Below are positions 5,732-28,325 of a DNA stretch of 64,000 bases, in pieces (the first letter of the stretch is position 1; every line of letters starts with the position of its first letter). Below the pieces are notes generated by a model, which saw only the letters and a list, made by a program, of their open reading frames with translations, was not told the origin of the DNA and made no database searches. The position numbers and the translations under genes are program-made. This DNA comes from Chloroflexota bacterium (GTDB lineage Bacteria; Chloroflexota; Limnocylindria; Limnocylindrales; CSP1-4), in contig JACPOS010000017.1 in the NCBI GenBank assembly GCA_016191395.1, forward strand, positions 124,001 through 188,000, written 5' to 3'.

Positions 5732-6421
5732 ATGGCCAAGACGATCCTCGTCGTGGAGGACGAGCCGACACTTCGCGAGACACTCGCTGAATCCCTGGAA
5801 GCCGATGGCTATCGGGCCGTCCAGGCCGCGGACGGGCGCGCCGCGCTGGCGAGCTTTCGAGCGGAGAAGCCGGACCTGGTCCTGCTTGACCTGATGCTGC
5901 CGGAGCTGTCCGGGCTCGAGGTGACCCGCCAGATCCGTGCCGAATCAACCATCCCCATCGTGATGCTCACCGCGCGCGACAGCGAGGTTGACAAGGTGGT
6001 CGGGCTGGAGCTCGGCGCGGACGACTACGTCACCAAGCCGTTCAGCTTCCGTGAGCTGTCCGCCCGGATTCGGGCCGTGCTGAGGAGAGGCGAATCGACG
6101 GGCGATCCGCTGCCGCCGCGGGTTCCGCTCGGGCTGGTCCAGGTGGACCTCGCCGGGCATCGGGTGCTGCGCAACGGCGCGGAGATCCCGATCAAGCCCA
6201 AGGTGTTCGAGCTCCTGGCGTTCCTCCTGCGCCATCAGGGCCAGGTGATGAGCCGCGACCAGCTGCTGGAGCAGGTCTGGGGCTACGACTACGCCGGCGA
6301 GACCCGCACCGTGGACGTGCACGTCCACTGGCTCCGCGCGGCGGTCGAGCCGGACCCGGCGATCCCGACGCTGATCCAGACTGTCCGCGGCGTTGGGTAC
6401 GTGCTGCGCCGCCCCGCCTGA
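5732..6421 (+). CDS. OmpR/PhoB-family response regulator, probable phosphate regulator
   Basis: A 229-residue two-domain regulator. The receiver has the acidic pair VVEDEPTLRE, the phospho-acceptor D in LVLLDLMLPELSG (about D53), the T/S in IVMLTARDS and the K in YVTKPFS. The winged-helix effector follows (PIKPKVFELLAFLLRHQGQVMSRDQLLEQVWGY, then TRTVDVHVHWLRAAVE and IQTVRGVGYVLRRP). This is the RegX3/PhoP/PhoB subfamily. No kinase is adjacent; the nearest candidate is the PhoR-like kinase at 18987. Pho-box repeats directly downstream, and the pit gene, support a phosphate role by context. Confidence 0.9.
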   Translation: MAKTILVVEDEPTLRETLAESLEADGYRAVQAADGRAALASFRAEKPDLVLLDLMLPELSGLEVTRQIRAESTIPIVMLTARDSEVDKVVGLELGADDYVTKPFSFRELSARIRAVLRRGESTGDPLPPRVPLGLVQVDLAGHRVLRNGAEIPIKPKVFELLAFLLRHQGQVMSRDQLLEQVWGYDYAGETRTVDVHVHWLRAAVEPDPAIPTLIQTVRGVGYVLRRPA

Positions 6422-6456
6422 GCGCCGGCGGGCCGGGTCGGGGGATCGGGAGAGAC

Positions 6457-6485
6457 GTTCACGAAGCGATCACGGCCCGTTGACG
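6457..6485 (+). promoter_or_regulatory. Triple 11-base Pho-box repeat
   Basis: Three heptamers on the top strand are each separated by four bases: GTTCACG, GATCACG and GTTGACG. Direct repeats of GTTCACC-like heptamers at 11-base spacing are the known binding pattern of actinobacterial PhoP/RegX3. The array lies 35 bases after the response regulator stop and immediately upstream of the small unknown gene at 6507. It closely resembles the array before pstS at 28286-28325, which is the best internal evidence that both belong to one regulon. Confidence 0.7.
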
Positions 6486-6506
6486 GTGCCAGCCGACCAT
6501 GACGGC

Positions 6507-6929
6507 ATGGCGGCGATGATCTCGACAACCCAAGCTCCAACGGGCGGGGTCGCGCACGCCATGAACCTGCCGGTCGAGGTGCCGACCCGACGTGAGGGTC
6601 CAGCCGCGATCGAGCCCGGGGAGCCCGCTCGCGAGCTCGACACCGAGGTGACCCGCCTCCTCCGGGTCCGCGGCGGCGAGCTCGCCGAGCCGCTCCTCTG
6701 GCAGCGGCCGAGCCACCGGCGCGAGACGGAGGACGTCGTCGCGCACCTCGCCCCGATCCACTCTCGGCTTGCGCTCCTCTCGTCCTGGGGGCGCGAATCA
6801 CACCGCAGCTCAGCGGTTCGCCTGGCCTATGCAATCGTCTGGCTGCGCCTCGCCCAGCGTCGAGCCGGTGAGTTCGGGCCGCGGGCGGGTCGCAGCGCGC
6901 GCACGAGGGTCCTTAGAGCACGCGGCTGA
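6507..6929 (+). CDS. Small unknown protein, probably phosphate-regulated
   Basis: I do not recognise a family. The product is 140 residues from ATG 6507, or 122 from ATG 6561, which has a better ribosome site (GGGCGGGG about 11 bases upstream) and leaves room for a promoter after the Pho boxes. The C-terminal half is helical and Arg-rich (EVTRLLRVRGGELAEPLLWQ; HLAPIHSRLALLSSWG; VRLAYAIVWLRLAQRR). There is no signal peptide and no cysteine. It overlaps the convergent pit gene by 17 bases. The Pho-box array just upstream is the main reason to believe it is real. A role in phosphate stress is inference from position only. Confidence 0.5.
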   Translation: MAAMISTTQAPTGGVAHAMNLPVEVPTRREGPAAIEPGEPARELDTEVTRLLRVRGGELAEPLLWQRPSHRRETEDVVAHLAPIHSRLALLSSWGRESHRSSAVRLAYAIVWLRLAQRRAGEFGPRAGRSARTRVLRARG

Positions 6930-7917
6930 GGATCTCCCAGGAGAGCCAGGCCACCGCTCCGGACGCAGGGATCGTGAGCACCCAGGCGACGAGGATGTTC
7001 CCGGCGACGCCCCAGCGAACCGCCGAGAACCGGTCGCTCGCGCCAACCCCGATGATCGCCGACGAGATCACGTGGGTCGTCGAGACGGGCATGCCGAAGT
7101 AGGACGCGCCCACGATGATCGTCGCCGCCGTCGTCTCAGCGGCGAACCCATGCACCGGGTCCAGCTTCACGACACGCTGGCCCATCGTCTTGATGATCCG
7201 CCAGCCGCCGGCCGCGGTACCGAACGAGATCGCCGTCGCGGCCAGGAGGATCACCCACAGGGGCACGACCGGCTTCGCGATGACGCCACCCGCCACAAGC
7301 GCCAGGGTGATGATGCCCATCGTCTTCTGGCCGTCATTCGAGCCGTGGCTGAAGGCCATGTAGGCGGCGGACAGGAGCTGCAGTCGCCGGAAGCGGTCGT
7401 TGATGCGCTTCGGGTGGGCTTTCTTGAAGACGTTGAGCAGCAGGACCATCAGCCCGAAACCGACCATGACGCCCAGGATCGGCGAGGCAACGAGCGGGAA
7501 GATGACCTTGTCGTAGATGCCCTGCCCGTTGAGCGACGACAGGCCCGATGACGCGATCGCGGACCCGATCAGGCCGCCGATCAGGGCGTGGCTGGAGGAC
7601 GAGGGGATGCCGAGCCGCCAGGTGATCAGGTTCCAGGTGATCGCGCCGACGAGCGCTGCCGCCACCACGATCTGGCCGTCGTCGCCGGCCGGCGTCGTGG
7701 CGATCCCCGAGGCGATGAACTTGGCCACCGCCGTGCCGCTCAGGGCGCCGACGAAGTTCGCTGCCGCGGACATGAGGATGGCGTGGCTCGGCCGCAGGGC
7801 CCTCGTGGACACGGATGTCGCGATCGCGTTCGCGGTGTCGTGGAAGCCGTTGATGTAGTCGAATCCGACCGCGAGCACGACGACCAGAACCAGGAGGAGA
7901 CTCAAACCTTCGGGCAC
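6913..7917 (-). CDS. pit: Pit-family low-affinity inorganic phosphate transporter
   Basis: PiT (PF01384) symporter importing phosphate or metal-phosphate. Both family repeats are present: GFDYINGFHDTANAIATSVSTRAL in the N-terminal half, and SHGSNDGQKTMGIITLAL followed by YFGMPVSTTHVISSAIIGVG in the second. About ten membrane helices are visible in 334 residues, a length like short bacterial Pit proteins. It starts at GTG and is divergent from proS with a 55-base gap. The usual operon partner, a DUF47 PhoU-like protein, is not adjacent but lies at 18.3 kb. No Pho box is evident in its own promoter gap, consistent with constitutive Pit expression. Confidence 0.93.
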   Translation of the reverse strand: MPEGLSLLLVLVVVLAVGFDYINGFHDTANAIATSVSTRALRPSHAILMSAAANFVGALSGTAVAKFIASGIATTPAGDDGQIVVAAALVGAITWNLITWRLGIPSSSSHALIGGLIGSAIASSGLSSLNGQGIYDKVIFPLVASPILGVMVGFGLMVLLLNVFKKAHPKRINDRFRRLQLLSAAYMAFSHGSNDGQKTMGIITLALVAGGVIAKPVVPLWVILLAATAISFGTAAGGWRIIKTMGQRVVKLDPVHGFAAETTAATIIVGASYFGMPVSTTHVISSAIIGVGASDRFSAVRWGVAGNILVAWVLTIPASGAVAWLSWEILSRVL

Positions 7918-18289: not shown

Positions 18290-18907
18290 TCAGGCGTGTT
18301 TAATGGTTATCCGCTCGATGATGTTGGCGACGTCCTCGGCCTTGTCGATCGTCTGCTCGAGGAGACCGTAGATCTCCTTCCACTTGATGACCTCGAGCGG
18401 ATGGCCGCCGCCACTGAAGAGGTCCGCGATCGCCTTGCGGGCGAGCTGGTCACCCTCGTTCTCCAGGCGATGGACCTCGATCCAGTACTTCTCCAGGCCC
18501 TTGAAGCCGCGCAGGTTCGTGAGCGCCTCGTGGAGCTGCTCGCATTGCTTGACGATGATCGCGGCCTGCTGGACCGCGACCGCGGTCGGCGCCTCGATGC
18601 GATAGAGGATGAACGTGTCCGCCGATTCCTCGATGAAGTCGATCACGTCGTCGAGGGCGCTGATCAGCGCGTGGATCTCCTCGCGGTCGAACGGGGTGAC
18701 GAACGTCTTCTCCAGCCGCCGGCCGATCTCGTGGCTGATCTCGTCGCCGACGTGCTCGGCGTCGCGGATCTCCCGCGCTCGGTCCTCGGGGTTGTCGTAC
18801 GTGCGGAGCATCGCCTCGAACAGGCGCGCCGCGCCGAGCACGTTCGCCGCGTCCTCCACGAACATGTCGTAGAAGCGCTCTTCCCGGGGGATCAGGTTCA
18901 ACCGCAT
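18290..18907 (-). CDS. DUF47 PhoU-like protein
   Basis: A 205-residue all-helical protein of the DUF47/TIGR00153 family, usually encoded beside Pit transporters and thought to modulate them. The sequence starts LIPREERFYDMFVEDAANVLGAARLFEAML and shows the metal-binding-like E-x-x-x-D patterns of PhoU relatives: DAEHVGDEISHEIGRRLEKTFVTPFDREEIHALISALDDVIDFIEE. Both repeats of the three-helix unit are visible. It is divergent from the PhoR-like kinase with a ~79-base gap, whereas pit itself is 10 kb away. ATG 18907 is chosen as the conserved start. Confidence 0.92.
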   Translation of the reverse strand: MRLNLIPREERFYDMFVEDAANVLGAARLFEAMLRTYDNPEDRAREIRDAEHVGDEISHEIGRRLEKTFVTPFDREEIHALISALDDVIDFIEESADTFILYRIEAPTAVAVQQAAIIVKQCEQLHEALTNLRGFKGLEKYWIEVHRLENEGDQLARKAIADLFSGGGHPLEVIKWKEIYGLLEQTIDKAEDVANIIERITIKHA

Positions 18908-18986
18908 CGACCCAAGGGTAGCGTCCGACGGGGTGAGCGTCCGACGCGCAGCGCCGCGCGCCGGCGGTGTGTGCGATGCTCGCGCC

Positions 18987-20312
18987 GTGGATGGGCTCGT
19001 GCTCGCTTTCGTCGCCGCGCAGGCGATCGTCCTTGCGATCGCGCTCGGGATCGCGTGGTCGCGCGGCCGGACGCTTGAGGCGGTCGAGGAATCGCTGCGC
19101 GATGCCGAGCCTGCCGGTGCCACGGCGCCCGCCGACGAGGACGTGACCGATCGACTGCGGCGCCTCCGACGGCGCGCCGAGAACGCAGAGTTCACGCTGG
19201 GCCAGCGACTCCGCGACCTCGCCTACCTCGCGGACCTCGTGGGCGTCGGGATCGTGCGGCTGACCGACGAGCTGCGCGTCGAGGTCGCCAACACCGCCGC
19301 GCACGTGTTCCTCCGCCGCGCGCCCGGCTCGATGGTCGGGCATACCGCGATCGAGGCACTCGGTGACCATCGGGTCGAGGCGATCGCTCGCGGCGCGCGC
19401 GAGGCCGGCTGGTCGAGCGGCGAGGTGGCGCTGGCCGACGAGGCGGGCTCCACCGGCGCGACCCTCGTCGTCCGCGCTCGTCGATCGCCGATCCTCGGCG
19501 TATGGCTCGTGCTCGAGGACGTCGCGGAGCTGCGCCGCCTCCAGCGCATCCGCACCGAATTCATCGACAACCTGTCGCACGAGCTGCGCACGCCGATCAC
19601 GACGATCGGGCTGCTGACGGAATCCCTCGCGCGCGACGCCGAAGGGGCAGAGGCGGCGCTCGCTCCCGTGCCGCCGAAGATGCGCGAGCGCATCGGGAAG
19701 CTGGAGGTGGAAACGGGCAACATTGCGCAGATGGTTGCCGAGCTCCTGGACCTCGCGCGGATCGAGAGCGGCGGGCGCCAGCTGTTGCTCGACGACGTGG
19801 ATCTTGGTCGGATCGCGACGGAATCCGTGGAGCGGCTGCGGACGTTCGCGGACCGTCAGGGCGTCACGCTGCTGGTGGAGGTCGACCCCGGCCTGCCGCC
19901 GGTCCGCGGCGAGGCGTCGCGGCTGGGGCAGGTGTTCGCGAACCTCGTCCACAACGCGGTGAAGTTCGGCCCGTCCGGGACCGAGGTTCGGGTCCACGTT
20001 GCTCGTGCCGCCGGCAGCCGGCCGGCGATGCTCGTCGCGAGCGTCAGCGACAACGGGCCCGGCGTCTCCGCGGCAGATCAGGCGCGCATCTTCGAGCGCT
20101 TCTACAAGGCGGATCGAACCCGCACTGCGGGCGGCGGCACCGGCCTGGGCCTCGCCATCGCGCGCCACATCGTGGAGGGACACGGAGGCGTGATTCGGGT
20201 GGAATCCGAGGAGGGCAGGGGAGCCACCTTCGAGTTCACGATCCCGGTCTCGGACGCTCCGGCCGAGCGCGCACCCGCCACGGCCGCAGCGCCGGGAGCC
20301 GCCCGTGGCTGA
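18987..20312 (+). CDS. PhoR-like sensor histidine kinase
   Basis: A membrane-linked kinase of 441 residues. One N-terminal hydrophobic helix (LVLAFVAAQAIVLAIALGIAW), a PAS-like region (LADLVGVGIVRLTDELRVEVANTAA), HisKA with FIDNLSHELRTPITT (phospho-His about residue 198), and HATPase_c with N box (FANLVHNAVKFGP), G1 (VSDNGPGV) and G2 (GGGTGLGLAIARHIVEGHGG). This layout matches PhoR/SenX3. GTG 18987 begins just before the helix; the 18933 ATG would add an unlikely Arg-rich head. The most likely partner is the response regulator at 5732. It overlaps the next gene by 8 bases. Confidence 0.92.
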   Translation: MDGLVLAFVAAQAIVLAIALGIAWSRGRTLEAVEESLRDAEPAGATAPADEDVTDRLRRLRRRAENAEFTLGQRLRDLAYLADLVGVGIVRLTDELRVEVANTAAHVFLRRAPGSMVGHTAIEALGDHRVEAIARGAREAGWSSGEVALADEAGSTGATLVVRARRSPILGVWLVLEDVAELRRLQRIRTEFIDNLSHELRTPITTIGLLTESLARDAEGAEAALAPVPPKMRERIGKLEVETGNIAQMVAELLDLARIESGGRQLLLDDVDLGRIATESVERLRTFADRQGVTLLVEVDPGLPPVRGEASRLGQVFANLVHNAVKFGPSGTEVRVHVARAAGSRPAMLVASVSDNGPGVSAADQARIFERFYKADRTRTAGGGTGLGLAIARHIVEGHGGVIRVESEEGRGATFEFTIPVSDAPAERAPATAAAPGAARG

Positions 20313-21063: not shown

Positions 21064-21740
21064 TGCACACCCTCCGCCTGGCTCACCGCGGCGACTGGCG
21101 CGTGGCGCCGGAGAACTCGCTGGCCGCGATGGAAGCCGCGCTCAAGGGTCCGATGTGCGACGGCCTGGAGTTCGACGTCCGCAGCTCGTTCGACAACGTC
21201 CCGGTGCTCCTCCACGACGAGACCCTGGCCCGCGTCCAGCGCGTCCCGCTGACCTGCTCGACCCTCACCGCAGAACAGCTCGCCGAGCACGGCGTGCCGA
21301 CGCTGGCGCAGGTGCTTGCCGTCGCCGACTGCGAGTTCTTCCTCGACGTGGAGCTGAAGGAGCCGGTCGCCGCCGCACTCGACGCCCTCGAGCTGGAGCG
21401 CGGGAGAGTGGAGAACGACGGCCGGGCGGTGGTCTGCAACGCGGCCGTCTCGTCATTCAAGGCACCGATCCTCGCCTGGCTCTCCGTGCAGCGGCCCACC
21501 TGGGTCCGATGGCTGAACGCGCTCGACGTCTCGCCGACGACGATCGAGCTCGCGACGTCGCTCGGTTGCTCGGCGATCTCTGCCGAGTGGCACACGATCG
21601 ATGCGGAGGCCGTCGCCCGCGCGAGCGCGGCCGGCCTCCAGGTCGCCGCCTGGACCGTCCGCGAGCTCGAGGACTACCGCCGCCTCGAGGCGCTCGGCGT
21701 CAGCGCCATCTGCGTCGAGGCCGCCGCGCTCGACGGCTAG
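21063..21740 (+). CDS. Glycerophosphodiester phosphodiesterase family protein
   Basis: Hydrolyses glycerophosphodiesters to glycerol-3-phosphate and an alcohol. The GDPD signature is at the N-terminus: LAHRGDWRVAPENSLAAMEAAL, then GLEFDVRSSFDNVPVLLHDETLARV (E, D and H of the active site), FFLDVELKEP, and the C-terminal GLQVAAWTVRE. At 225 residues it is a compact single-domain form with no signal peptide. Its ATG overlaps the EEP stop (TGATG). The stop codon overlaps the convergent arsM stop by two bases, leaving no room for a classic terminator. Confidence 0.9.
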   Translation: MHTLRLAHRGDWRVAPENSLAAMEAALKGPMCDGLEFDVRSSFDNVPVLLHDETLARVQRVPLTCSTLTAEQLAEHGVPTLAQVLAVADCEFFLDVELKEPVAAALDALELERGRVENDGRAVVCNAAVSSFKAPILAWLSVQRPTWVRWLNALDVSPTTIELATSLGCSAISAEWHTIDAEAVARASAAGLQVAAWTVRELEDYRRLEALGVSAICVEAAALDG

Positions 21741-22594
21741 TTCGCGGCGACGGCGGGCTTCGTGGCCCGGATGATCGCGGAGTGCATGCCGTCGGTGAGC
21801 TGATGCGTGGGCACCACCTCGACGTTCGTAAGGCCGACCGCTCGCAGGCCGTCGCGCATCTCGCGGAACGACAGCGCGCCCGCGATGCAGCCCACGTACG
21901 AGCCGCGCTCGGCGCGCTGGGCCGGTGTCAGCAGGTCGTCGGCCACCACGTCGCTGACTCCCACGCGGCCACCGGGCCGCAGGACACGCGCGATCTCGGC
22001 GAACACGGCGTCCTTGTCGGACGCGAGGTTGATGACGCAGTTGCTGATCACGACGTCGACGCTCGCGTCGTCCAGCGGCAGGGCCTCGATGGTGCCCTTT
22101 CGGAACTCGACGTTGTCGGCGCCCGCCTCGGCGGCGTTGCGCCGGGCCAGGCTGAGCATCTCGTCCGTCATGTCGACGCCGATCGCGCGACCAGTCGGGC
22201 CCACGCGGCGCGCGGAGAGGAGGACGTCGATGCCGCCGCCGGAGCCAAGGTCCAGGACGGTCTCGCCCTCGCGCAGCTCGGCGACCGCGATCGGGTTGCC
22301 GCACCCGAGCGACGCGAGAACGGCCGCGTTCGGCAGGCCCTCGCGCTCTGCCGCGTCGTACAGCTCCAGGCCGTACGTGGCGGAGGCATCGCTGCAGCAC
22401 GCGTCGTCGCAGCAGTTGGCGGCGGTTGCCTCCGGCGCGGCCTTGACGATGTCGTGGACCGACGTTGCCGTGGCGGCCGCGATCGCGGCTTCCGCGTAGC
22501 GGTCGCGGACGGTCTGCTGGATCTCGTTGAGCTGGAGATTCTGGTCGGTCACGGGAGTGGCTCCTGCTGATGGCGGGACGCGCTGGTCAGTCAT
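21737..22594 (-). CDS. arsM: Arsenite S-adenosylmethionine methyltransferase
   Basis: Methylates As(III) to mono-, di- and trimethylated forms using SAM. A 285-residue class I methyltransferase with motif [21 protein letters not shown] and the ArsM hallmarks [17 protein letters not shown] and YVGCIAGAL, supplying the three conserved As(III)-binding cysteines. The N-terminal CCDDACC cluster is an extra Cys-rich segment seen in many bacterial ArsM proteins. It is divergent from arsR with a small Cys-ended gene between. No efflux pump (ArsB/Acr3) is seen in the window, so volatilisation may be the main arsenite exit. Confidence 0.95.
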
Positions 22595-22621
22595 GGGGCC
22601 CGGGGGCCGAACGGGCTTCGG

Positions 22622-22834
22622 TCAGGCCGGGCAGTTGCACGCGTCGGTCGCGGCGGGGCCGGCGAACGCGAGGCGGAGGCGGGTCAGGAAGCTCTCGCGG
22701 GCTGGCATGGCTGGCTCCGCCTGGCGGTGGTCGGTCGTGATGCGGGCCTCGCGAAGTGCCGTGTCGTGGAAGTGGTTGCGGGTGTCCGGGGTCTCGCCCC
22801 CGAACGACCAGTTGGTGAGGTATGCCTCGGACAT
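22622..22834 (-). CDS. Small arsenic-locus protein ending in CNCPA
   Basis: A 70-residue product that I do not recognise. ATG 22834 is chosen because AGGAG stands 9 bases upstream; the longer frame runs through the arsR operator. It contains TNWSFGGETPDTRNHFHDTALREA, a basic C-terminal helix (ESFLTRLRLAFAG) and the terminal motif ACNCPA. Two closely spaced cysteines beside arsM could bind arsenite, or the C-terminus could be modified, but both are guesses. It lies 27 bases upstream of arsM on the same strand, downstream of the ArsR palindrome, so it should be induced with arsM. Confidence 0.6.
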   Translation of the reverse strand: MSEAYLTNWSFGGETPDTRNHFHDTALREARITTDHRQAEPAMPARESFLTRLRLAFAGPAATDACNCPA

Positions 22835-22871
22835 ATCAGATGACTCCTGTCGGTCTGTCGATCGCCTGTCT

Positions 22872-22934
22872 GTATCGATGGACGTCAATATTGCACCCAT
22901 ATCGACGCTTGTCAATATCGACATTCATCGATAC
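22872..22934. promoter_or_regulatory. arsO: Long inverted-repeat operator between arsR and the arsM operon
   Basis: Two 22-base arms face each other: the left begins GTATCGATG and ends CAATATTG, the right is its near-complement ending CATCGATAC, with about three mismatches and a 19-base spacer. Local AT content is much higher than the surroundings. The arms bracket both divergent promoters, and the right arm ends directly at the arsR start, as expected for ArsR/SmtB repressors that bind long imperfect palindromes containing ATA-n-TAT cores. Confidence 0.75.
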
Positions 22935-22944
22935 CATGCGGGTC

Positions 22945-23310
22945 ATGGTCAAGTCACTCGACCCGGACATCCAGCTCCTCGCCGCCCTCGCCGACCCGAC
23001 GCGGATGGAGATCCTGCGCGAGCTCGCGGGCCAGCCCGAGGTCTGCGCCTGCGACTTCACATCGTGCTGCACGGTCTCGCAGCCCACGGTCTCGCACCAC
23101 CTCAAAGTGCTTCGGGACGCCGGCGCCGTCACCTCGGAGCGACGGGGGAACTGGGTCTTCTACCGGCTTGCCCCGAACCTGAAGGATCGTCTCGGCGCGA
23201 TTGCCCAGGGCCTTGCGCCCGGCAACGGCCTGATCCAGGTCTCAGGGCTTCGAGGGCGCGCCGCACGAACGCGGCCGACCCCCGTGCCGGCGCCTTCGGC
23301 GAGCGCCTGA
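22945..23310 (+). CDS. arsR: ArsR-family arsenic-responsive repressor
   Basis: Winged-helix repressor of 121 residues (124 from ATG 22936). The domain reads LLAALADPTRMEILRELAGQPEVCACDFTSCCTVSQPTVSHHLKVLRDAGAVTSERRGNWVFYRL in order. The cysteines in VCACDFTSCC, just before the recognition helix SQPTVSHHLKVL, form the inducer site for As(III). The C-terminal tail is Arg/Pro-rich and probably disordered. The operator abuts the start, so the transcript may have almost no leader. It ends four bases short of the convergent arsC stop. Confidence 0.93.
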   Translation: MVKSLDPDIQLLAALADPTRMEILRELAGQPEVCACDFTSCCTVSQPTVSHHLKVLRDAGAVTSERRGNWVFYRLAPNLKDRLGAIAQGLAPGNGLIQVSGLRGRAARTRPTPVPAPSASA

Positions 23311-23314
23311 CGCC

Positions 23315-23764
23315 TTAGGGCGCGGCTCGGGCGCCACCCCTGCTCGCGAGCGCGAGCGGCACGAACGTCCGGATCCGGCCGGAGATCTCCGTCATCGCCT
23401 TCTCGAAGGCCTCCAGGCGCTGCGCGTCGGTGCCCTCCGCTTCCACGGGATCATCGATGCCCCAGTGGAGCGTCTCGCTGCCGCCGGGAAATACCGGGCA
23501 GGATGCGCGCGCCCGGTCGCAGACCGTGATCACGTAGTCGAACCGCTGGCCCAGGAACCGGCCCACGGACTTCGACTCCGCGCCGGAGATGTCGATGCCG
23601 GCCCTCGCGAGCGCCTTGATCGTCAGCGGATGGACGCCCCGGGGATCGACACCCGCGCTCACGACCTCGAACGCGGCGCCTCCGTCGCGACGCAGGATCG
23701 CTTCGGCCATCTGGCTCCGGGCGGAGTTCCCCGTGCAGACGAAGATCACGCGAATTGCCGTCAC
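23315..23764 (-). CDS. arsC: Arsenate reductase, low-molecular-weight phosphatase type
   Basis: Reduces As(V) to As(III). The P-loop VFVCTGNSARSQMAEAIL carries the nucleophilic Cys and Arg, with the catalytic Asp-Pro in WGIDDPVEAEG and a VCDRARASCP segment supplying further cysteines as in thioredoxin- or mycothiol-type enzymes. Length 149 is typical. It starts with GTG overlapping the phoU stop (GTGA), so it is the last gene of the pst-phoU operon and not of the ars operon, despite lying four bases from arsR. Thioredoxin reductase is elsewhere, at 51.1 kb. Confidence 0.93.
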   Translation of the reverse strand: MTAIRVIFVCTGNSARSQMAEAILRRDGGAAFEVVSAGVDPRGVHPLTIKALARAGIDISGAESKSVGRFLGQRFDYVITVCDRARASCPVFPGGSETLHWGIDDPVEAEGTDAQRLEAFEKAMTEISGRIRTFVPLALASRGGARAAP

Positions 23765-24450
23765 GGGTTGAGGTCCTCGATCTGGCCGGTGGCCAGGTAC
23801 ACGACGTCCTCGGCGATGTTTGTGACCCGATCGCCGATGCGCTCGAAATCATGGGCCGCGAACAGGATTCGCGTGCCGCGTTCCACGTTGGCCGGGTCTG
23901 CGCGCATCAGCTCGACGACCTCCGAGAACACGCGGTGATAGAGGTGATCGATCTCGTCGTCGCCGGCGGCTACCGCGCGCGCCTGGTGCTCGTCGACGTC
24001 GATGAGCGCGCCGGCGATCGCGCGGACGAGGTTGGCCGCGATCCTGCCCATTGCCGCGAGGTCGGCGTACGGGCGCATCGCGGGCGTTCCGGCGAGCTTG
24101 CGGGCCTGCTTCGCGACGTCGCCCGCGTGATCGCCGATCCGCTCGAGTTCGTACGTGACGCGATCCAGTGACAGCAGGAAGCGCAGGTCGCGGGCGACTG
24201 GCTGCTGCAGAGCGATCGTCGTCGTGATCAGCGCGGATGCCTCGCGCTGGGCCTCGTCGACGCGCGCGTCTCCGTCGATCACGGCGGTCGCGAGGGTCGC
24301 GTCGCGCGCCTCCATGGCCTGGATCGCGGCACGGATCTGCTGCTCCACCAGGGAGGCCATGCGCAGGACCTGGTCCTTGACCTCCCGCTCGCCGCGGTCG
24401 AGTGCCTCGCGCCGTGCGGAGAACGCGGCACCCACCGGCTCGGTGGCCAT
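23761..24450 (-). CDS. phoU: Phosphate transport regulator PhoU
   Basis: A two-repeat helical protein of 229 residues that restrains phosphate signalling by bridging the Pst transporter and the kinase. Each repeat has the metal-binding E-R-x-x-D-x-x-x-N/D motif: VTYELERIGDHAGDVAKQA in repeat 1 and AAHDFERIGDRVTNIAEDVVYLATG in repeat 2. The ATG at 24450 is shared by one base with the pstB stop; the longer frame in the track overlaps pstB. With the DUF47 protein, the window encodes two PhoU-type regulators, for Pst and Pit respectively. Confidence 0.96.
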   Translation of the reverse strand: MATEPVGAAFSARREALDRGEREVKDQVLRMASLVEQQIRAAIQAMEARDATLATAVIDGDARVDEAQREASALITTTIALQQPVARDLRFLLSLDRVTYELERIGDHAGDVAKQARKLAGTPAMRPYADLAAMGRIAANLVRAIAGALIDVDEHQARAVAAGDDEIDHLYHRVFSEVVELMRADPANVERGTRILFAAHDFERIGDRVTNIAEDVVYLATGQIEDLNP

Positions 24451-25304
24451 CAGCCGAACCGCCCGGAGATGTAGTCCTCGGTCAGGCGCTCGCGGGGGTT
24501 CGTGAAGATCTTCACCGTGTCGTCCACCTCCACCACGTAGCCGGCCCGATCCTCGCCCATGGTGAGGAAGACCGTGCGATCCGAGGCGCGTGCCGCCTGC
24601 TGCATGTTGTGGGTCACGATGACGATCGTGTAGTCGCGCTTCAGCTCGGCCATCAGCTCCTCGATCTGGAGCGTGGAGCGGGGATCGAGCGCGGAGCACG
24701 GCTCGTCCATGAGGATGACCTCTGGCTCCACGGCGATCGTGCGCGCGATGCACAGACGCTGCTGCTGCCCGCCGGACAACGCCATGCCGTGCTGCTTCAG
24801 CTTGTCTTTGACCTCGTTCCAGAGCGCCGCGCGCCGCAGGCTCTGCTCCACCAGTTCGTCCAGGTTGCCCTTGAACCCGTTGATCCGCGGCCCGAACGCG
24901 ACGTTGTCGTAGATCGACTTCGGAAACGGGTTCGGCTTCTGGAAGACCATGCCGATCCGCCGCCGGACGGCGACCGGATCCACGCCCGGCCCGTACAGAT
25001 CCTGGCCTCCGAACTGGATATGCCCGTCCGTCCGATACGAGGGGATGAGGTCGTTCATCCGGTTCAGGGTGCGCAAGAGCGTGGTCTTTCCGCAGCCCGA
25101 CGGGCCGATCAGCGCCGTGACCTCGCGGGCGCCGATGTCGATCGATACGTCCTTCACGGCCCGGAACGAGCCGTACCAGCAGCTGACGCCGTGCATTCGA
25201 AGGACGGTCTCGCGCTCCGCTACCGGGAGCGTGGGCGTGATCGGTGGCAGCGGCGCGATCGTGACGCCGATCGCCGGCTGCCGTGGCGCTAACAGGCTGG
25301 GCAT
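24450..25304 (-). CDS. pstB: Phosphate ABC transporter ATP-binding protein
   Basis: Energises high-affinity phosphate import. 284 residues with Walker A ([20 protein letters not shown]), Q-loop ([23 protein letters not shown]), signature ([15 protein letters not shown]), Walker B ([13 protein letters not shown]) and switch ([16 protein letters not shown]). These are PstB-specific forms. The N-terminal ~35 residues ([21 protein letters not shown]) are an extra Pro-rich head before the core. The start is ATG 25304, 14 bases after pstA, and the ORF-track version that extends into pstA is a shadow. Confidence 0.97.
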
Positions 25305-25318
25305 CGAGCCGGACTCCT

Positions 25319-26221
25319 CTACCACTGGAGATGCCGCGACAGGCGGGCGCGGACGATGATCGCGAGGCCGTTGAGCAGGAGCATGAGGACCAGGAGGACG
25401 AGGATCGCCGCCGCCGCGATGCCGTGGAACGCGTCCTGCGGGCGGCTGGCCCACTGGTAGACCTGGATGGGCAGGACCGTGAAGCCCTCCTGGAATGGGG
25501 TCGGGAGGAAGGTCACGAAGCTGGCCGCGCCCACGACGATGATCGGGGCCGCCTCGCCGATCGCCCGCGCCATGGCCAGGATGATCCCGGTCATGATCCC
25601 GGGCGCTGCGGCCGGGAGGATGGATCGGCGGACCATCTGCCAGCGCGTCGCCCCGAGCGCGTACGCCCCCTCTCGCTGCGAATCCGGCACGGATCGGAGC
25701 GCCTCCATCGTGGCGATGATCACGACGGGCATGATCAGGAGGGCGAGGGTGAGCGCGGCCGCGATCGGCGAGCGGCCGAGCTGGAGTGCCCGCGCGAAGA
25801 GCGCAAGCCCGAAGATCCCGTACACGATGGATGGCACGCCGGCGAGATTCGAGATGTTCGTCCGCAGGATCCGGTTGAACAGCGTGTTCGCCGCGTACTC
25901 CTCGAGGTAGATGGCCGCAGCCACGCCCAGCGGGAAGCTGATCGCCCCGACCATCAGGCCGATCTCGATCGAACCGACCAGGGCCGGCAGGATGCCCGCC
26001 TGCTCCGGGCGCCTCGACGGCGTGCCGGTGATGAAGTCCAGGTCGATGTACGGCAGGCCCTTCGTGATGACGTCGTACAACAGGAGGACGAGGGCGAGCA
26101 GCAGGAGCCCGATTGCGGCCATGCACGCGCCGAGGAAGCTGGTCCCGGCGAGCTTGCGCCGGGCAATCTGGGGTTCGAAGCGGGGCCGGGCCCCGACGGC
26201 GGGCGGGGAAGCCGTGCTCAC
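25319..26221 (-). CDS. pstA: Phosphate ABC transporter permease PstA
   Basis: Membrane subunit with about six helices in 300 residues. The EAA-type coupling loop is visible as [55 protein letters not shown]. The N-terminal [47 protein letters not shown] segment is diagnostic for PstA over PstC. It uses GTG, overlapping the pstC stop by four bases. Confidence 0.96.
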
Positions 26222-27129
26222 GAGTACCGATTCCGGAACCGGGCGACGATCCGGTTGCTGATCAGGTTGAGCCCGAGCGTGATCGCGAAGAGCACGAGCC
26301 CCACGGCGAACAGCGACTTGAACTGGAGCGAATCCTGGGGCGTGTCGCCGCTGGTGATCTGGGCGATGAAGCCAGCCATGGTGCCGCCCTGCTCGAGCGG
26401 ATCGAGCGTCAGGCGTGGGTTGAAGCCCATCGCGAGCACGACGGCCATCGTCTCGCCGACGGCGCGCGACATGGCCAGGATGATCGAGGACATGATCCCC
26501 GACAACGCCGCCGGGAAGATCACCTTGCGCGTCACTTCGAAGCGGGTGGCCGCCATGGCAAAGGCACCCTCGCGGAGGCCGCGCGGCACGGCCCGCAGCG
26601 CATCCTCGGACAGCGACGCGATGAGCGGCGTCACGAGGAGCCCGACGACGAGGCCCGCCGACAGCATGTTGAACGTCCCGATCTCGGGCAGGATCGGCTT
26701 CAGCAGCTCCGGCGTGATGAAGTTGAGGGCGAAGAACCCGAGCACGATCGTCGGGATCCCGGCGAGCGTCTCGAGGACCGGCTTCACGATCGTCCGCGTC
26801 CGGTTCGACGCGTATTCGCCGAGGTACACCGCTGCCAGGAGGCCGAGCGGCACCGCCACGACGAGCGCGATGAGGGCGACGCCCAGGGTCCCGGCGACGA
26901 GCGGGATGACGCCGAACCTGAACGGCAGGATGGAGGCCGACCAGACGGTCCCGGTCAGAAAGTCGATCGGGTTCACGAAGGCGAAGAACTGGACGGCCTG
27001 GAGCAGGAGCACGAGAACGATCCCGGCGGTCGTCACGATGCCCGCGCCCGCGGCGGAGGCGAGGAGCAGCTCGATCACGCGCTCGGTCGCGGATCGCCGC
27101 AGGACGAGGGGCCGGCCGTCCGTAGTCAT
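26218..27129 (-). CDS. pstC: Phosphate ABC transporter permease PstC
   Basis: 303 residues with about six helices. PstC features include [35 protein letters not shown], then [34 protein letters not shown] and the coupling loop [53 protein letters not shown]. It starts at ATG 82 bases after pstS, and that gap holds a stable hairpin. Confidence 0.96.
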
Positions 27130-27211: not shown

Positions 27212-28222
27212 CTACTTGAGTGCCGCCTCCAGGGCCGCCTTCGACTTGGCCAGGACATCGGGCTGGGCCTCGATGTACCCGGTCTCGTCGACGAACGTGT
27301 TGACGTTGTCGAGGTAGTAGCGAACGAAGGCCGCGACCTCCGGTCGAAGCAGCGCCCTCGTGGATGGGTAGATGAACAGCGGGCGGGCGAGTGGCTTGTA
27401 GGTCCCGTTGTTCACGTTTGCGGCGGAAGGCTCAACGCACCCCTTGCCGCTGTCGATCGCGACCGCCTTGATCTTGTCGAGGTTCTCCTCGAGGTAGGCG
27501 AAGCCGAAGTAGCCCAGCGCATCCTTGTCACCGGCGACGCCGGTCACCAGGGCGTTGTCGTCCTCCGATGGCGTGTAGTCGGAGCGACTCTGCTTTGCCT
27601 TGCCGTTGATGACCTCGGTGAAGTAGTCGAAGGTCCCGGAGTCCGGGCCGGGCCCGAACAGCTTGATCGGCTCGGCCGGGAACATCGGGTCGACCTGGTT
27701 CCAGGTGGACACCGTGCTGCCCTGATCCCACATGAGCTTGAGCTGCGCCGTGGTCAGGCAGGTCGCCCACGTGTTGTTCTTGTTGACGACCACCGACAGT
27801 GCGTCCGTCGCGATGCCGAGCTCGAGGTAGCTCACCCCGGCGTCCTTGCACAGGGTTGCCTCCGACTTCGCGTCCGCCGTGTCTGCGGTCTTGATCGGGC
27901 GCGACGCGTCGTTCATGTCCGTCTCGTTGTTGCAGAAGCGCTTGAACCCGCCGCCCGTGCCCGCGAAGGCGACGGTCACCTTGACCCCGCTGTTCGCCTT
28001 CTGGAACTCCTCGGCCACGGCCTCGGTGATCGGGTAGACCGTGCTGGAACCGTCGATGTTCACGGCGCCGGACAGTGGCGCGGCGGCTGTTGCGCCGGGT
28101 GTCATTGTGGGGGCCGTGGTCGCTCCGGACGTCGGTGCCGTCGCGGCGCCGCCGCCACACGCGGCGATCACGAACGCCGCGGTCGCGAGCAGCGCGAGAC
28201 CCCTGGTTCTGGATGTGGTCAC
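27212..28222 (-). CDS. pstS: Phosphate-binding lipoprotein PstS
   Basis: Extracytoplasmic phosphate receptor, 336 residues. The signal reads LALLATAAFVIAACGGG, with a lipobox whose Cys at about residue 22 would be lipidated, then a Thr/Ala/Pro spacer. Phosphate-site motifs are IDGSSTVYPITEAVAEEF, FAGTGGGFKRFC, DASRPI and GPGPDSGTFDYFTEV. Cys residues (FCNNE; TLCKD; ATCLTT; GKGCVEP) may form disulphides. The GTG start is preceded by GGGAGGA, and a four-unit Pho box lies 65-105 bases upstream. It is the first gene of pstSCAB-phoU-arsC. Confidence 0.96.
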   Translation of the reverse strand: MTTSRTRGLALLATAAFVIAACGGGAATAPTSGATTAPTMTPGATAAAPLSGAVNIDGSSTVYPITEAVAEEFQKANSGVKVTVAFAGTGGGFKRFCNNETDMNDASRPIKTADTADAKSEATLCKDAGVSYLELGIATDALSVVVNKNNTWATCLTTAQLKLMWDQGSTVSTWNQVDPMFPAEPIKLFGPGPDSGTFDYFTEVINGKAKQSRSDYTPSEDDNALVTGVAGDKDALGYFGFAYLEENLDKIKAVAIDSGKGCVEPSAANVNNGTYKPLARPLFIYPSTRALLRPEVAAFVRYYLDNVNTFVDETGYIEAQPDVLAKSKAALEAALK

Positions 28223-28285
28223 TCGATGCGTCCTCCCTGGACATGCACACAGGCGTTGTCGTACGAGGAGATCGTCGAGTTGAGG

Positions 28286-28325
28286 CGTGAACGGGGTGTC
28301 GGCCCCGTGTTAACAGTCGATCAAC
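28286..28325 (-). promoter_or_regulatory. Four-unit Pho box before pstS
   Basis: On the bottom strand, heptamers GTTGATC, GTTAACA, GCCGACA and GTTCACG follow one another with exactly four bases between each. Three of the four fit GTTNAN and the third is degenerate. The 11-base period puts all units on one face of the helix, as with PhoP/RegX3/PhoB-type binding. The array starts only 24 bases after the stop of the upstream unrelated gene and ends 63 bases before the pstS GTG. Confidence 0.8.

Follow-up and report, generated by a model that had tools for sequence, protein, structure and literature searches.

Among the closest described systems, the pstS promoter of E. coli K-12 carries two Pho boxes, that is four 11-nt units, read from the record as CTGTCAT, CTGTCAT, CTTACAT and CTGTCAC, with the third deviant; the upstream region reads CTGTCATAAAA CTGTCATATTC CTTACATATAA CTGTCACCTGT TTGTCC TATTTT. 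In this organism PhoB sites overlap the −35 region, and a structural model has room for PhoB and sigma at the same time (PMC3348028); the spacing has to be kept strictly (PMC10294691). For Streptomyces, the PHO box unit bound by PhoP is GTTCACC followed by 4 nt (PMC7866108, PMC2605767, PMC4415409), with two such units at pstS (PMC7866108, PMC2605767). The cyanobacterial SphR boxes are made of CTTAACCT units (8 bp + 3 bp; PMC1906773), and the Microlunatus PolR site is GTTCACnnnnnGTTCaC, two units under a DevR-like regulator that is thought to be oxygen-responsive (PMC6754071). The SenX3-RegX3 pair of M. tuberculosis is also a phosphate-starvation system; it enters the comparison through the regulator protein. 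The literature searched contained no account of a Pho operator from the phylum considered here. This phylum is plausibly Chloroflexota, and the class Limnocylindria, to judge from a sister family whose genomes measure about 1 Mb, as known for Limnocylindraceae.

The window (the whole stretch of 64,000 nt that was analysed; features in table 1) contains on its minus strand, at 28325-28286, four 7-mers in exact 11-nt phase, the third without the TT of the others, as the first-pass annotation had described. The box ends 63 nt before the GTG start of pstS, and GGGAGG within these 63 nt is a plausible site for ribosome binding. The window contains a single instance of the phased pattern, against 0.03 matches expected in shuffles, even at 2 mismatches, as does the 2.42-Mb assembly (89.9% complete) when up to 2 mismatches are allowed, with no match for the reversed control. 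Rfam and tRNA scans of the window gave no matches. The features by which a Pho box is recognized are found together at this site: at least two direct repeats of 7 conserved and 4 variable nt in 11-nt phase, a position before phosphate-acquisition genes (pstSCAB-phoU), a fixed spacing to a −10 element with the box in place of the −35, and a probable cognate PhoB/PhoR pair in the genome. The prediction that the box is a genuine Pho-type operator, a further instance of a type of switch already known, is well supported.

Table 1. Positions in the window of the predicted operator, promoter and genes discussed in the text.
Feature	Position	Strand	Remarks
Pho box unit 1, GTTGATC	28319..28325	-	TT in 14/15 orthologues aligned by eye
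Pho box unit 2, GTTAACA	28308..28314	-	highest conservation among units; TT 15/15, A5 15/15
Pho box unit 3, GCCGACA	28297..28303	-	conserved weak unit; TT never, A5 near-invariant
Pho box unit 4, GTTCACG, promoter-proximal	28286..28292	-	TT 15/15, A5 15/15
Predicted −10 element, GACGAT (xAnnnT)	28271..28276	-	A and T at both positions in 40/40 sites
pstS, phosphate-binding lipoprotein	27212..28222	-	TIGR02136, 264.8 bits (cut-off 206.6)
pstC	26218..27129	-	TIGR02138, 243.9 bits
pstA	25319..26221	-	TIGR00974, 276.1 bits
pstB	24450..25304	-	TIGR00972, 384.6 bits
phoU	23761..24450	-	TIGR02135, 187.6 bits
arsC-like low-molecular-weight phosphatase/arsenate reductase, last gene of operon	23315..23764	-	PF01451, 78 bits
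Probable cognate response regulator PhoB (RegX3/PhoB type)	5732..6421	+	G029 orthologue lies next to box and pstS
Probable cognate histidine kinase PhoR	18933..20312	+	HisKA and HATPase; orthologue of the G029 kinase between PhoB and box
Pit-type low-affinity transporter	6913-7917	-	by sequence
PhoU_div/DUF47 protein	18290-18913	-	domain match

The operon behind the box is pstSCAB-phoU-arsC on the minus strand. The five genes from pstS to phoU each score above their curated NCBIfam cut-off, and the arsC-like product, which reaches 119.6 bits against TIGR02691, is under the cut-off of that profile.

Some features of the surroundings deserve mention in their own right. The window has the character of a phosphate island, with PhoB, a Pit-type transporter, a PhoU_div/DUF47 protein and PhoR (5732-7917 and 18290-20312) besides the pst operon. 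Genes for arsM, arsR and the arsC-like protein adjoin the operon (21737-23764), and the end of phoU is overlapped by arsC; such a linkage makes sense because arsenate is taken up by phosphate transporters.

The regions upstream of PstS orthologues in related genomes were read, and 15 of them could be aligned by eye, gap-free, to the four-unit layout. Units 2 (GTTAAC) and 4 (GTTNA) retain TT and A in every one of them and unit 1 in all but one, while unit 3 has TT in none of the 15 and A at position 5 in all; for units 1-4, C stands at position 4 in 6, 0, 4 and 5 of the 15 regions, respectively. When the pattern, which imposes TTNAY on unit 1 and leaves the bases 3' of unit 4 unconstrained, was searched throughout the order, 48 exact matches were obtained in 126 genomes and none with the reversed pattern. 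Downstream of most of the sites with a readable flank, tblastn identified pstS, or a regulator gene followed by pstS; 3 of 44 pattern sites (L069, L078, L082) do not precede pst and were excluded from the profile. A class-wide search, with the −10 constrained and unit 3 left free, yielded 53 exact matches in 177 genomes, the controls giving none, and among the unique sites unit 3 has TT in 0/52 and A5 in 51/52. These sites come from 20 genera, and the binomial values, which assume independence, overstate the case because the sites share ancestry. Alignment of related pstS upstream regions, the check that had been proposed with the initial identification, thus came out strongly in favour of a Pho-type operator; on the other hand, to call the site a rare direct view of such an operator was too strong, the same site being present in dozens of related genomes.

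The same counts dispose of the reading that GTTNA words merely happen to follow one another in this GC-rich intergenic stretch. Isolated short motifs of such a type are indeed common, and a search of the genome itself with two units and a −10 gave 8 matches against 4 in the controls. Nevertheless, the four-unit match stands at 1 against 0.03 expected, the order- and class-wide matches stand against controls of 0, and the flanks of the box are without conservation in the 40 usable pst-linked sites, so that a chance origin is refuted and its probability is negligible. The two-unit search had been directed at a wider regulon and, at 8 matches against 4, is unusable for that purpose; one of its matches, just behind phoB (6468-6500), is not claimed.

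Several lineages depart from the pattern. In the g24 family, with genomes of about 1 Mb, neither the order-wide nor the class-wide search gave a match, and the pstS upstream regions contain TTAAC words at a different spacing. In genome G029, the region upstream of pstS (L027/L062) carries a weakened, apparently three-unit box, a weaker variant that fails the pattern, with PhoB and PhoR adjacent to pstS. In the genus of the window's own genome (g1), a close PstS and the box are absent from most genomes and PhoB is nearly always present, which may reflect either a patchy distribution of the pst operon or incomplete assemblies. A contig search with PstS matched only two distant proteobacterial loci.

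Turning to the promoter, no sigma-70 consensus −35/−10 pair and no separate −35 hexamer were found. All 40 pst-linked sites collected with no constraint on the −10 carry A as the 7th and T as the 11th base past the 44-nt box. The A and T of AnnnT are the two key positions of the −10 hexamer. In the window the corresponding hexamer, GACGAT, is a poor match to TATAAT, and the distance between the last conserved A, in unit 4, and the −10 is 12 nt, equal to that of E. coli pstS. A 17-nt spacer would put a −35 on unit 3, from position 5 into the following linker.

From this arrangement, the box and GACGAT are predicted to form a standard PhoB-activated promoter of pstSCAB-phoU in which the box replaces the −35, a reading to which a probability of roughly 0.88 may be given. 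On phosphate starvation PhoR would phosphorylate PhoB, two dimers of which would bind head-to-tail, one on units 1-2 and one on units 3-4; the promoter-proximal dimer would recruit sigma region 4 of RNA polymerase, standing in for the −35, and transcription would start from the GACGAT −10. PhoB would be held on unit 3 by cooperativity rather than by sequence, and, judging from the geometry, this unit may stay weak because sigma region 4 must sit there too.

The degenerate third unit had originally been taken to set a graded response, with units 1-2 and 4 filling first and unit 3 only at high levels of phospho-PhoB, expression rising with starvation. Occupancy graded by unit strength has been described for Streptomyces PhoP operators (PMC7866108), and unit 3 is the weakest unit both in the window and in its relatives. 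However, its weakness is found at the same position throughout the class, where the unit overlaps the would-be −35. E. coli pstS shows it as well, and so, with a different sequence, does much of a phylum sample. Of the 400 genomes in this sample 163 have an exact match, the reversed control giving far fewer matches, non-zero in AT-rich genomes. Only 16 of 95 phylum matches have a complete TTNA as unit 3, a lead rather than a measurement, as the 95 were hand-picked from the matches listed, favouring a TAnnnT −10. Inside the class unit 3 keeps A5 and loses TT, whereas in the hand-picked matches from outside it tends to keep T3 and lose A5. Because the weakness is conserved across the class and present in much of the phylum sample and at E. 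coli pstS, it does not resemble a locally tuned setting, and the near-invariance of A5 indicates a unit that is kept and not decaying. A graded response set by local tuning is therefore unlikely, and the weakness seems to belong to the standard layout as a conserved element of design.

With regard to the regulators, the PhoB and PhoR candidates of table 1 are likely to be the pair that serves the box. In G029 the order is OmpR-type response regulator, histidine kinase, box region, pstS, each adjoining the next. The box-side response regulator of G029 scores about 332-334 bits against the window PhoB and about 190 against the next regulator of the window's genome, and its kinase 395 bits against the window PhoR and 130 against the next kinase. 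The E/D, D53, T and K residues of the receiver are intact in the window PhoB, the nearest solved protein of which is M. tuberculosis RegX3 (240.6 bits, full length). Since it reaches 241 bits with the curated PhoB profile, under the cut-off of 296, its identity as PhoB rests on synteny and orthology. The two genes are approximately 13 kb apart and do not form one operon. Most genomes of the order have one orthologue of the response regulator; it is single-copy in 33 of the 39 box-bearing genomes checked, and 19 of these 33 have it on the contig of the box, 5-26 kb off. Several genomes have PhoB and lack a matching box, and the pst operon is missing from most genomes of the window's own genus, so that either PhoB must act on further targets or loss of the operon must be frequent.

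It could be argued that the box serves another member of the OmpR family instead of PhoB. The genome has 15 matches to OmpR-type C-terminal domains, direct repeats of such spacing are often used in this family, the mycobacterial PhoP virulence regulator recognizes 7-bp repeats with a 4-bp spacer (PMC4832192), and the window response regulator is also high-scoring as MtrA-like. This alternative is nevertheless very improbable in the light of the gene order of G029, which ties the window regulator and kinase to box and pstS, of the gap between the two regulator scores given above, and of the proximity of PhoB to the box in 19 genomes.

A further observation concerns the sister genera g2, g3 and g32, in which the gene immediately preceding pstS codes for a PhoB-like protein that the window's genome lacks (L060:3319-4107 in G015, L061:2985-3902 in G016, and L123-L147). 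Pfam did not detect a receiver domain in the two such proteins tested, and the acceptor Asp and Lys are absent in all 25 aligned sequences (one of them a fragment with no acceptor column; Asp, 0/24 readable). The recognition helix RTVDVHVRWL is kept in g2 and in most g32 members, and is altered in g3. The gene for the PhoB-like protein mostly has the pstS box at its end or overlapping that end; in g2 and part of g32 a further four-unit box with a −10 precedes this gene itself, and the g3 operator consists of three units, again with a weak middle one. Most genomes with the degenerate regulator also keep a canonical PhoB. Tentatively, and with a chance somewhat below even, the degenerate regulator, incapable of being phosphorylated, may partner PhoB or compete with it at the same box in a dedicated pst feedback loop. 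Aspartate-less receivers are known, in Chloroflexi as well (PMC4395418); none was found connected with a Pho box in the papers searched.

The alignments provide a sharp consensus that can be tested, TTNAY-N6-TTRAY-N9-A-N7-TTNA followed at a fixed distance by an AnnnT −10, which permits phosphate-regulated promoters to be predicted in uncultured bacteria. Since the layout of E. coli pstS, deviant third unit and exact spacing included, appears again in a distant phylum, what the weak unit does becomes approachable by experiment. The likeness to E. coli extends to the replacement of the −35 by the box and to the pstSCAB-phoU operon downstream, whereas the units are GTTNAC instead of CTGTCAT, the −10 is GACGAT instead of TATTTT, and the spacers here are GC-rich. 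With the Streptomyces PHO box the site shares 11-nt units, the initial GTT, A5, pstS as target and a related regulator, but it has four units instead of two, position 4 is free, being A in unit 2, and the consensus GTTCACC is not reproduced, GTTCAC occurring only in unit 4; the accessible portions of the Streptomyces accounts (PMC7866108, PMC2605767) contain no description of a conserved weak third unit. The cyanobacterial SphR boxes resemble it in the TTAAC core, the 11-nt period, the presence of at least three tandem units and the pst targets (PMC1906773), unit 2 with its GTTAAC recalling the cyanobacterial sequence, and differ in having three units and belonging to another phylum. The Microlunatus PolR site has a near-identical unit, the same period and a position before pst/pit genes (PMC6754071), and differs in the number of its units and in its regulator. 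The designation as a box of actinobacterial type, made in the first-pass annotation, thus holds for the regulator, nearest to RegX3, and for the GTTCAC word used by Streptomyces PhoP and Microlunatus PolR; it does not hold for the free position 4, the four units and the geometry. Since its units lie between those of Streptomyces and of cyanobacteria and its geometry is that of E. coli, the predicted operator would best be filed not as actinobacterial but as a separate sequence type of Pho box.
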